This document shows positions 3,399-10,108 of a stretch of DNA of 40,148 nt, piece after piece. The notes beneath the pieces are model-generated. The model was not told the origin of the DNA, searched no databases, and saw only the letters and a list, made by a program, of their open reading frames with translations. The stretch comes from Lysobacteraceae bacterium (GTDB taxonomy: Bacteria; Pseudomonadota; Gammaproteobacteria; Xanthomonadales; Xanthomonadaceae), in the NCBI GenBank assembly GCA_024508915.1, contig JANINR010000060.1, forward strand, positions 1 to 40,148. The letters are read 5' to 3'. A program made the translations under genes and the position numbers. Position 1 is the first letter of the stretch. Each line of letters starts with the position of its first letter.

Positions 3399-3580
3399 CC
3401 GAGGGTGCAATCGCGTCGAATCCGGCGCGGCGCGGCGACGGGCGCGCCCCCGCCCGGAGGCCGCGATGATACGCTGGCCGTCTTCCGACGATGCCGCAGC
3501 GCGCCGCCCCTGGCGGTGCGCCGCAGGCTTCGGCCGGCCTTCCGACCTGCACGACCGGATCGAGTCCCGTACCACCTCCC
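3399..3580 (+). promoter_or_regulatory. dnaA upstream region with a tentative -10
   Basis: This 182-bp stretch separates the rpmH promoter from the dnaA start. A possible -10, TACGCT at 3470-3475 in the context gatacgctgg, resembles hexamers seen before other genes here, but no good -35 accompanies it. I see no DnaA box matching TTATCCACA with one mismatch or fewer, so autoregulation by DnaA is not supported from this stretch. An in-frame ATG at 3491 exists but the conserved protein begins at 3581. Confidence 0.35.
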
Positions 3581-4933
3581 ATGGATGCCTGGCCCCGCTG
3601 TCTCGAGCGCCTCGAAGCCGAACTCCCGGCGGAGGACGTCCACACCTGGCTGAAGCCGCTGCAGGCCAGCCCGCGCGACGACGGGTACGTGCTGTACGCG
3701 CCGAACGCCTTCGTCCGCGACGAAGTCCGGGATCGTTACCTGGACCGGATCCGCGAACTGCTGGCCCACTTCGCGGGCAGCGGGGAGGTGAGCCTGGAGA
3801 TCGGCTCGCTGCGCCGGGCCGCGCCGGCCCCGACCGGGTCGGGCAACGCCGGGGCCCCCTCCGCCCCGGCCGCGGGCGCCGCCGGAACGGCCGACGATTT
3901 CCAGGGCCACCTCGACAGCCATTACACCTTCGACAACTTCGTCGAGGGCCGCAGCAACCAGCTCGGCCGCGCCGCCGCCTGGCAGGCGGCGCAGAAGCCG
4001 GGCGACCGCGCGCACAACCCGCTGCTGCTGTACGGCGGCACCGGCCTGGGCAAGACCCACCTCATGTTCGCCGCCGGCAACGCGATGCGCGCCGCGCGGC
4101 CCGGCATGCGCGTGATGTACATGCGCTCCGAGCAGTTCATGAGCGCCTTCACCAAGGCGCTGTACGACAAGACCAGCGGCGGCATGGAAGCGTTCAAGCG
4201 CCAGTTCCAGGGCATCGACGCGCTGCTGATCGACGACATCCAGTTCTTCGCCGGCAAGGACCGCACGCAGGAGGAGTTCTTCCACACCTTCAACGCGCTG
4301 TTCGACGGCAAGCAGCAGATCATCCTGACCTGCGACCGCTACCCGCGCGAGGTGGAGGGCCTGGAACCGCGGCTGAAATCGCGGCTCGGCTGGGGCCTGT
4401 CGGTCGCGATCGATCCGCCGGACTTCGAGACGCGCGCGCAGATCGTGCTGTCGAAGGCGAGCGAGCGCGGCACCGTGATCCCGGAGGACGTCGCCAACCT
4501 GATCGCGAAGAAGATGCGCTCGAACGTGCGCGACCTCGAGGGCGCGCTCAACACGCTCGCCGCGCGCGCCAACTTCACCGGCCGGCCGATCACCGCGGAG
4601 TTCGCGCAGGAGACGCTGCGCGACCTGTTGCGGGCGCAGCAGCAGGCGATCGGCATCGCCAATATCCAGAAGGTCGTGGCAGACTACTACGGCCTGCAGA
4701 TCAAGGACTTGTTGTCGAAACGGCGGACGCGTTCGCTGGCCCGCCCGCGCCAGGTGGCGATGGCGCTGGCCAAGGAGCTGACCGAGCACAGCCTGCCGGA
4801 GATCGGCGATGCCTTCGCCGGCCGCGACCACACGACCGTGCTCCACGCCTGCCGCCAGGTGAAAAACCTGCTGCAGACGGACGGCAAGCTGCGCGAAGAT
4901 TGGGACAAGCTGGTCCGCAAGCTCAGCGAGTGA
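3581..4933 (+). CDS. dnaA: chromosomal replication initiator protein DnaA
   Basis: AAA+ ATPase that binds DnaA boxes at oriC, melts the origin and loads DnaB. The 450-residue protein starts [23 protein letters not shown], the beginning known from Xanthomonas DnaA; an upstream in-frame ATG (3491) would add 30 non-conserved residues. Domain I occupies roughly 1-80, a Gly/Ala/Pro linker 85-110, and the AAA+ domain carries Walker A GGTGLGKT at 152-159 and Walker B LLIDD at 215-219. The C-terminal DNA-binding domain has the signature [11 protein letters not shown] at about 414-424. It heads the rightward dnaA-dnaN-recF-gyrB series. Confidence 0.98.
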
Positions 4934-5220: not shown

Positions 5221-6321
5221 ATGCGCTTCAGCCTGCAACGCGAAGTCTTCCTGAAACCGTTGGCCCAGGTCGTCAACGTCGTCGAGCGCCGGCAGGCGCT
5301 GCCCGTGCTCGCCAACCTGCTGGTGCAGGTCCAGGGCGGCCAGCTCTCGCTGACCGGCACCGACCTCGAGGTCGAGATGGTCGCGCGACAGGCCGTGGAC
5401 GACGCGCAGGACGGGGAAACCACGATCCCGGCCCGCAAGCTCTTCGACATCGTCCGTGCCCTGCCCGACGGCAGCAAGGTCACGGTGTCGCAGGCGGGCG
5501 ACAAGATCACGGTGCAGGCCGGGCGCAGCCGCTTCACCCTGGCCAGCCTGCCCGCGCGCGACTTCCCCTCCGTGGATGAAGTCGAGGCGACCGAGCGCGT
5601 GCGCGTGCCGGAGGCGGCGCTGAAGGAATTGATCGAGCGCACCGCCTTCGCGATGGCGCAGCAGGACGTGCGCTACTACCTCAACGGCCTGCTGTTCGAC
5701 CTGCGCGACAAGGGCCTGCGCTGCGTCGCGACCGACGGCCACCGCCTGGCGCTGTGCGAAGCCGCGCTCGACGGGGACGCCAATGCGAAGCGCCAGATCA
5801 TCGTGCCGCGCAAGGGCGTGACCGAGCTGCAGCGACTGCTGGAAGGCAGCGACCGCGAGCTGGAGCTGGAGGTCGGCCGCAGCCACATCCGCATCAAGCG
5901 CGACGATGTCACCTTCACCAGCAAGCTGATCGACGGCCGCTTCCCGGACTACGAGGCGGTGATCCCGATCGGCGCCGACCGGGAGGTCAAGATCGACCGC
6001 GAAGTCCTGCGGGCCGCCCTGCAGCGCGCGGCGATCCTCTCGAACGAGAAGTACCGCGGCGTCCGCGTCGAGGTGTCGCCGGGCCAGCTGAAGATCAGCG
6101 CGCACAACCCGGAGCAGGAAGAGGCGCAGGAAGAGGTCGAGGCCGAGACCCGCGTCGACGGCCTGGCGATCGGCTTCAACGTCAACTACCTGCTGGATGC
6201 CCTGACGGCCCTGCGCGAGGAATTCGTGGTCCTGCAGCTGCGCGACGCTAATTCGTCCGCCCTCGTCCGCGAGGCGGGGAGCGAGCGCTGCCGGCACGTG
6301 GTGATGCCGCTGCGCCTGTGA
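5221..6321 (+). CDS. dnaN: DNA polymerase III subunit beta (sliding clamp)
   Basis: Ring-shaped processivity clamp for DNA polymerase III and a docking platform for repair proteins. The 366-residue length equals the E. coli protein and contains the three repeated clamp domains. It begins MRFSLQREVFLKPLAQVVNVVERRQALPVLANLLV and ends with the conserved VVMPLRL, the C-terminal segment that contributes to the ligand-binding pocket. The ATG at 5221 is preceded by a good Shine-Dalgarno AAGGGG (5210-5215) at 5-nt spacing. A parS-like site lies 6 bp after the stop codon. Confidence 0.98.
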   Translation: MRFSLQREVFLKPLAQVVNVVERRQALPVLANLLVQVQGGQLSLTGTDLEVEMVARQAVDDAQDGETTIPARKLFDIVRALPDGSKVTVSQAGDKITVQAGRSRFTLASLPARDFPSVDEVEATERVRVPEAALKELIERTAFAMAQQDVRYYLNGLLFDLRDKGLRCVATDGHRLALCEAALDGDANAKRQIIVPRKGVTELQRLLEGSDRELELEVGRSHIRIKRDDVTFTSKLIDGRFPDYEAVIPIGADREVKIDREVLRAALQRAAILSNEKYRGVRVEVSPGQLKISAHNPEQEEAQEEVEAETRVDGLAIGFNVNYLLDALTALREEFVVLQLRDANSSALVREAGSERCRHVVMPLRL

Positions 6322-6327
6322 CCGCCC

Positions 6328-6343
6328 GGTTCCACGTGGAACA
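6328..6343. other. parS-like centromere site 1
   Basis: GGTTCCACGTGGAACA matches the palindromic ParB-binding consensus TGTTCCACGTGGAACA at 15 of 16 positions. It is in the dnaN-recF gap. Two more sites follow within 1.15 kb. ParB binding to such sites near oriC organises origin segregation; parA and parB themselves are not in the window. Confidence 0.85.
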
Positions 6344-6412
6344 GCATGGACGCCCGGTCAACGCCGGGCGTCGTGCTTTGTGCCGTCATGAATGGGGTGG
6401 CGGGGAGGGATC

Positions 6413-7519
6413 GTGCGCGTAATCCGCCTCGACTTCTCCGGCGTGCGCTGCTTCGAGCACGGTGAGCTGGCCCCCGCGCCCGGGCTGAACCTGGTCCACG
6501 GCGCGAACGGCAGCGGCAAGTCGAGCCTGCTGGAAGCCCTGCACCTGATGGCCTATGCCCGGAGCTTCCGCGGCCGGGTGCGGGATGGCCTGGTCCGCGC
6601 CGGGGCGCCCGCCCTCGAAGTGTTCGTTGAGTGGCAGGAAGCCTCCGGCCGCCTGCGTCGGGCGGGTCTGCGCCACTCCGGGCAGCAGTGGGAGGGCCGG
6701 CTGGATGGTGCGCCGCTCGCGCAGCTCGGTGACCTGTGCGCGGCGCTGGCCGTGGTGACCTTCGAACCGGGCAGCCACGCGCTGGTCATGGGTGGAGGCG
6801 AGGCGCGTCGCCGCTACGTGGACTGGGGCTTGTTCCACGTGGAACCACAGTTCCCCGGCCTGTGGCGCCGTTACGCGCGGGCGCTGAAGCAGCGCAACGC
6901 GCTCCTCAAGGCCCGCCAGCGCGACGGCCAGCTCGATGCCTGGGAGCATGAGCTGCACCAGGCCGGAACGCCGCTCGGGCAGGCGCGGGAACGCTACCTG
7001 CAGGCGCTCCAGCCCTTCCTGCAGCGGGTCTCCGATGCCGTCTTCCCAGAAGGGCGGGGTGCGCAGCTGCGCTATCTGCCCGGGTGGCGGCAGGACGACC
7101 TCTCGCTGGCCGATGCCCTGCTGCTGGCCAGGGACCGGGACCTGGCCGCGGGTTTCACGTCCGTTGGGCCGCATCGAGCCGACTGGCGGATCGAGCACGA
7201 GGCCATTCCGGGCCGCGAGGCCCTGTCGCGCGGCCAGGCCAAGCTCACGGCGCTTGCGGCGCTTCTCGCGCAGGCCGAACACCAGGCTGCGGTCCGCGGC
7301 GACTGGCCGGTGGTGGCGCTGGACGACCTGGCGTCCGAACTCGACCGGAACCACCAGGCCCTCGTGCTGGACCGCCTGGCCGCCACCGGCGCCCAGGTGA
7401 TCGTGACCGGGACCGAGCCGCCCCATCTCCCGCCGGGCCTGGGCTGGTCCACGGTGTTCCACGTGGAACACGGCCGGATCGGCAGGGACACGGCGCCCGA
7501 GGGCGCCCCCGCGAGCTGA
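6413..7519 (+). CDS. recF: DNA replication and repair protein RecF
   Basis: SMC-like ATPase that works with RecO and RecR to load RecA at gaps. I prefer the GTG start at 6413 because GGGGAGGG (6402-6409) lies just before it and the product then begins MRVIRLDFSGVRCF, the usual RecF beginning; an ATG at 6392 would add seven residues. The 368-residue protein shows Walker A GANGSGKSS near residue 30, the MAYARSFRGRVRDGLVR segment, GPHRADW, the signature REALSRGQAKL and Walker B VVALDDLASELD. Two parS-like palindromes lie inside the gene and encode FHVE at residues 141-144 and 349-352, positions where RecF sequence conservation is low as far as I can judge. Confidence 0.95.
   Translation: MRVIRLDFSGVRCFEHGELAPAPGLNLVHGANGSGKSSLLEALHLMAYARSFRGRVRDGLVRAGAPALEVFVEWQEASGRLRRAGLRHSGQQWEGRLDGAPLAQLGDLCAALAVVTFEPGSHALVMGGGEARRRYVDWGLFHVEPQFPGLWRRYARALKQRNALLKARQRDGQLDAWEHELHQAGTPLGQARERYLQALQPFLQRVSDAVFPEGRGAQLRYLPGWRQDDLSLADALLLARDRDLAAGFTSVGPHRADWRIEHEAIPGREALSRGQAKLTALAALLAQAEHQAAVRGDWPVVALDDLASELDRNHQALVLDRLAATGAQVIVTGTEPPHLPPGLGWSTVFHVEHGRIGRDTAPEGAPAS
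6831..6846. other. parS-like centromere site 2, inside recF
   Basis: TGTTCCACGTGGAACC matches the parS consensus at 15 of 16 positions. It is read within recF as part of codons for F-H-V-E (residues 141-144). It is 503 bp from site 1. Confidence 0.85.
7455..7470. other. parS-like centromere site 3, inside recF (perfect match)
   Basis: TGTTCCACGTGGAACA is a perfect 16-bp palindrome and a full match to the gammaproteobacterial parS consensus. It lies near the 3' end of recF in the same codon phase as site 2, again giving F-H-V-E (residues 349-352). It is 624 bp from site 2. Confidence 0.92.

Positions 7520-10108
<2,589 letters not shown>

Follow-up and report, generated by a model that had tools for sequence, protein, structure and literature searches.

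The window (the whole stretch of DNA that was analysed, 40,148 nucleotides of a Lysobacteraceae bacterium) holds three copies of a parS-like 16-bp word within 1.15 kb, two of them inside the coding sequence of recF. This raises the question of whether the word is kept for its own sake, with RecF following, or whether RecF keeps the residues that the word encodes and the palindrome comes with them. Based on codon use and on comparison across the class Gammaproteobacteria, we consider it highly probable that the three words serve the chromosomal ParABS system as parS centromeres, that the class has long carried the recF pair and that selection is on the DNA word.

Three parS-like words in the dnaA-dnaN-recF-gyrB operon

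The words and their neighbours in the window are as follows.

3491..4933, + strand: dnaA, an origin-proximal marker (Pfam Bac_DnaA, Bac_DnaA_C, DnaA_N)
5221..6321, + strand: dnaN, sliding clamp (Pfam DNA_pol3_beta, three domains)
6328..6343, no strand: parS-like intergenic word GGTTCCACGTGGAACA in the dnaN-recF gap, 1 mismatch to TGTTCCACGTGGAACA
6349..6372, + strand: weak candidate for a terminator-like hairpin with a T-rich tail, directly 3' of the intergenic word and between dnaN and recF (1 found versus a shuffle mean of 0.4)
6413..7519, + strand: recF (Pfam SMC_N/AAA; RecF chains in PDB), with a likely GTG start at 6413 and a mechanical ORF from the ATG at 6392
6831..6846, no strand: putative parS site 1 within recF, TGTTCCACGTGGAACC, 1 mismatch, codons L-F-H-V-E-P
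7455..7470, no strand: putative parS site 2 within recF, TGTTCCACGTGGAACA, 0 mismatches, codons V-F-H-V-E-H
7655..10108, + strand: gyrB (Pfam gyrase B domains)

All three copies, the palindrome or a one-base variant of it, lie where the first-pass annotation had placed them (6328, 6831 and 7455), the first outside recF, as its count implied, and the other two within the gene in identical codon phase. FHVE accordingly appears twice in the protein, as residues 141-144 (site 1) and 349-352 (site 2) counted from the likely GTG start at 6413, or beginning at residues 148 and 356 in the ORF from ATG 6392. The glutamate codon at both sites is GAA, in a genome whose own dnaA, dnaN, recF and gyrB use GAG 106 times versus GAA 42 times.

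A chance origin, which the annotation had called negligible, is ruled out by shuffling together with a whole-genome scan. Across 100 shuffles of the window the number of matches averaged 0.07 and no shuffle yielded three, and the genome (G000; 2.39 Mb, 99.81% complete) holds four places within 2 mismatches, namely the three words and one on contig C152 with 2 mismatches, where a reversed-pattern control in the same scan gave 1 match. Beyond the three words, no position in the window came within 3 mismatches of the palindrome, and the genome-wide scan for the 16-mer that had been proposed as a check returned no further copy with ≤1 mismatch. Compared with the 16-bp parS palindrome TGTTYCACGTGRAACA the words have 0, 1 and 1 mismatches, and they are both rare in this assembly of 157 contigs and placed in the dnaA-dnaN-recF-gyrB operon, probably close to the replication origin.

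The proteins that a chromosomal parS calls for are encoded in the same genome. A single ParB match (187.6 bits on TIGR00180, above the family cut-off), with ParB_N, HTH_ParB and ParB_C domains and alignable to solved ParB, Spo0J and Noc chains, lies on another contig in an rsmG-parA-parB group, together with a ParA-type ATPase and with GidB/RsmG upstream. The highest-identity named RecF in the scan of named loci is that of Luteimonas sp. 8-5 (74%, best segment), and in a structure model of RecF (mean pLDDT 80) site 1 falls between two helices, adjoining a stretch with pLDDT <50, and site 2 within the C-terminal strand pair.

The closest known system is that of P. aeruginosa, in which parS1 and parS2 are located near oriC in the same gene, recF (PMC5521831, PMC3909081), and have the sequences TGTTCCACGTGGAACC and TGTTCCACGTGGAACA, identical to the two words here (PMC4368675 Table 1). 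There, ChIP-seq found ParB on four sites TGTTCCACGTGGAACM with in vivo enrichment across >20 kb (PMC5098823), and the intragenic sites have been mutated without altering amino acids (PMC4368675). P. aeruginosa has two more strong intergenic sites, parS3 and parS4, near PA0010-PA0015, whereas the genome studied here has one more, in the dnaN-recF gap. As parS1 and parS2 were already published in that position, parS in recF is not new, and what the first-pass annotation saw as the notable part, tight clustering in recF, is partly known; what is added below is the breadth. The parS survey by Livny et al. (2007) may already mention recF. Within the portion of the literature that our search reached, a search that is weak for subscription journals, no account of the breadth of parS in recF was found, and that breadth across the class may be undescribed even though single cases are known.

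Distribution of the recF pair

Within the family, both recF words (≤2 mismatches) were found in 30/30 loci, own included, which were fetched from 30 of the 36 family genomes in the sample. Both words were also present with ≤1 mismatch in 23/23 named loci, a set biased toward FHVE because the search patterns held the peptides YVDWGLFH and WSTVFHVE that span both sites. An extra word upstream of recF (≤2 mismatches, within 1.5 kb) accompanied the pair in 26/30 family loci and 22/23 named loci at positions varying from -52 to about -1150 bases relative to the RecF match start, and the four family loci lacking it all belong to one genus code (g7). The intergenic site is a movable addition that is usual in the family. 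In the wider order sample, a word with ≤1 mismatch occurred in 195/200 genomes.

The class sample comprised 140 genomes, about one per family and ≥90% complete (as in the phylum sample), of which 117 gave a RecF match; 114 loci were used, omitting G000, whose family is represented by G001, and the weak matches G289 and G295. Alignment-free counting with ≤2 mismatches revealed two sites in 89 of these recF genes, one in 20 and none in 5, with two of the one-site genes (L072, L135) being assembly breaks whose second word was detected in other scans. Among the 198 sites, 114 had 0 mismatches, 72 had 1 and 12 had 2, and 196 were in the FHV phase (FHVE 152, FHVK 37, FHMK 3, FHME 2, FRVE 1, FYVE 1). 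The spacing from first to second word had a median of 621 bases, with extremes of 31 and 702, and was a multiple of 3 in 90/94 cases. When the count took in words as far as 90 bases beyond the match and flanks of 400 bp, the 85 recF genes flanked by both dnaN and gyrB had at least two words in 78 cases, one in 7 and none in 0, while the six with neither neighbour had two words in 2 cases, one in 1 and none in 3; the remaining 23 had one neighbour in view. The commonest genome-wide count was exactly 2 (84/140 genomes), as would be expected if those genomes had no sites besides the recF pair.

This distribution bears on whether the palindromes could be operators in place of centromeres, bound by some other regulator of the dnaN-recF-gyrB operon. 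They do sit in an operon, and ParB excess in P. aeruginosa lowers the expression of genes around parS1-4 (PMC5521831). Two of the words, however, lie deep within coding sequence, ChIP-seq in P. aeruginosa shows these words to be the principal sites of ParB (PMC5098823), and a ParB relative is present in 135/140 class genomes, with a word (≤1 mismatch) in 125/140. We therefore regard an operator role as extremely unlikely and continue with the words as putative centromere sites.

Outside the class, 20 recF genes were compared, one per family, drawn from 66 matched genomes in other classes of the phylum, and none of the 20 carried a word with ≤3 mismatches. The chromosomal ParABS systems of Bacillus and Caulobacter share with the present one a 16-bp palindrome in the origin region and a cognate ParB, but parS of this type, outside the class, was not in recF in our sample. 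In a Caulobacter screen, recF-gyrB proved a hot spot for the insertion of parS (PMC5815017). Inside the class, E. coli K-12 has a homologous recF in the same dnaA-dnaN-recF-gyrB order, yet its recF holds no word with ≤2 mismatches and its RecF has FHNE and FTVE in place of the FHVE pair; the Enterobacteriaceae are reported to be without par genes (PMC3909081, PMC4368675).

Codon constraint and RecF residues

If FHVE were kept for a need of the RecF protein, the palindrome would be a by-product of codon use. Class-wide codon choice points the other way: TTY-CAC-GTG-RAA was found in 181/186 aligned FHV[EK] sites, where the codon usage of the same genes leads one to expect CAC-GTG-RAA in 21/186. 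The product probability of this match was given no weight because the genomes are related. In this alignment-based count, L036, which does hold both words, shows up as gapped at the two sites owing to a fault in frame extraction, and L130 and L148 are scored as having other residues although they carry the word in another frame. The first-pass annotation had asked whether FHVE is conserved through other codons, and FHV[EK] in other codons amounted to 5/186 aligned sites in the class, each of them differing from the parS core by a single base (GTA in place of GTG, or CAT in place of CAC), and to 1/20 outside it. That last case, L253, writes FHVE as TTT CAT GTT GAA, indicating that the residues can occur without parS.

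A scan of codon excess across recF, restricted to the 187 columns with a modal residue in ≥40/113 rows, ranked parS codons in all of the top seven places (V150, V358, H149, H357, E151, V147 and E359 in ORF numbering), such that among the columns tested the FHVE codons are more constrained than elsewhere in the gene. The lead over the eighth column, S128, is large for V and H and small for the weakest of the seven (z of 7.7 for E359 versus 7.5). As expected of a chromosomal parS, the word is conserved as DNA.

Residues at sites that have lost the word, excluding variant and one-base-off words, show which parts of the motif depend on it. At site 1 (n=14), V as third residue occurred in 0/14, F as first residue in 13/14 and E in 4/14; at site 2 (n=17), H as second residue occurred in 1/17, F as first in 10/17, V in 4/17 and E in 6/17. 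The persistence of F and of some E, along with V at site 2, favours a protein need, as does the V read by eye in the site 2 column of 16/20 RecFs from other classes, and parts of the motif are probably easy for RecF to accept, judging from how frequent F is without the word and how common V is at site 2 elsewhere. RecFs that lack the word can likewise have F at either place and V at site 2, so the cost of each site to RecF is limited to a few residues. The absence of V at site 1 and near absence of H at site 2 once the word is gone tie FHVE in relatives to the palindrome, the comparison that the first-pass annotation had asked for, and these residue changes together with the codon scan support the earlier suggestion that the centromere sequence is imposed on RecF or tolerated by it.

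The same columns speak to the idea that, of the three, the intergenic site at 6328 alone still functions as parS and the recF pair are relics or back-ups. In its favour, one parS is enough in P. aeruginosa (PMC4368675, PMC5098823). But the recF words are the gene's most codon-constrained columns across families, the commonest genome-wide count in the class is exactly two, and in the organism's own family the upstream word is the mobile or missing one, and we give this reading a small chance of being right. The reading in which the recF pair is itself under selection as DNA is the one followed below.

Sites without recF, displaced sites and matched variants

Twenty-five class genomes had no credible match to the window's RecF, a definition that a strongly diverged recF could escape; 21 of them gave DnaN and 15 had dnaN and gyrB together. 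The dnaN-gyrB gap retained a word (≤1 mismatch) in 11 of these 15, one word in 4 and two in 7, within gaps of 69-277 bases, and the paired gap words lay 26-43 bp apart (L159, L160, L161, L165, L168, L171, L172). No word with ≤1 mismatch was found in the gap of the other four (L170, L173, L174, L176), among which L173 is from a 0.4 Mb genome with no ParB and L174 has a 980-base gap, possibly with a diverged recF, and one 2-mismatch word. Six loci with dnaN and with gyrB out of view held no word with ≤3 mismatches. A quick tree built from DnaN+GyrB (65 rows) requires at least 8 changes in the presence of recF, which makes several losses likely, their number being unsure; a test placing the 15 recF-less rows in one clade gave p-AU 0.028 on this quick tree, of which 29/62 inner branches are open. 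A genome of this kind without detectable recF (G298, dnaN locus L164) holds 12 parS-like words versus the usual 2.

Two recF genes carry the word in another frame. In L130 it lies at about 824-839, some 23 bases downstream from where site 1 normally stands, the residues of that site are gone, and on either side of the word RecF keeps its homology in a single frame; in L148 it is out of phase in the last codons of a shifted C-terminus, where a sequencing error is possible. Five recF genes have no site (L043, L101, L136, L145, L146). The genomes of the first three hold two words elsewhere, with stretches L152 and L155 having no adjoining dnaN, recF or gyrB match; L145 lacks the word and its ParB match is weak; and the genome of L146 (G241) has a ParB relative, but with the patterns tried neither its recF nor the rest of the genome yielded a word. 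Word pairs 47 bp apart (G258:C8, L152) and 29 bp apart (G222:C5, L153) were seen on stretches without a dnaA, dnaN, recF or gyrB match, and in G222 recF also retains one site.

With these cases, the protein-need explanation meets words that encode other residues in another frame (L130, L148) and words retained in genomes without detectable recF, and we regard it as very unlikely. Protein-level conservation as the cause was rejected on these two grounds along with the codon excess and the loss of V and H. Codon constraint, retention without recF, loss of V and H with the word and its absence from the 20 recF genes sampled in other classes all indicate that the DNA is constrained and that RecF follows.

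Where the word differs, both sites can be altered alike within one gene: L113 has CACATG twice, L141 has CATATG twice and L147 has GTA in both. A widened pattern located variant words in G220, G282 and G227 solely at the recF sites, two in each. Aligning 28 ParBs revealed odd helix-turn-helix residues in these variant genomes, GLSR (G220), VSRSR (G282) and GKPR (G227); we do not link the parS variants to ParB specificity because the variant genomes are too few and some are fast-evolving. The variant recF cores of L113, L141, L147 and L124, with ParB loci L297, L298, L306 and L303, are a possible natural series of ParB-parS code change.

The simplest account is an old parS pair fixed in recF, with the DNA word selected and RecF adapting to it. 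By analogy with P. aeruginosa (PMC5098823, PMC4368675) we infer ParB binding and a function in segregation, and the age of the pair is likewise inferred. It is likely, though less so than the identity of the sites as parS, that the pair took up its two fixed recF codon positions early in the history of the class and has held them since, that it writes RecF residues, that both sites change together when the ParB-parS code drifts, that a word can return in a different frame when the protein changes, and that the words stay, 26-43 bp apart, where recF was lost, probably several times. ParB from the rsmG-parA-parB group would most likely load as a dimer on the words and would then spread over the dnaA-dnaN-recF-gyrB region, whereby ParA would move sister origins apart; ParB probably also helps load SMC, as in other bacteria. 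Selection would act on the DNA word, and the codons CAC GTG RAA, together with the V of site 1 and the H of site 2, would follow.

The recF pair would be a clear natural example of amino acids in a core repair gene being fixed by a DNA element that acts at the level of the chromosome, and not by what the protein does. Why two sites some 620 bp apart persist though one suffices in the laboratory becomes a testable question, and the matched parS variants (CACATG, CATATG and TACGTA cores) with their ParBs may serve as material for studying how a centromere code changes.
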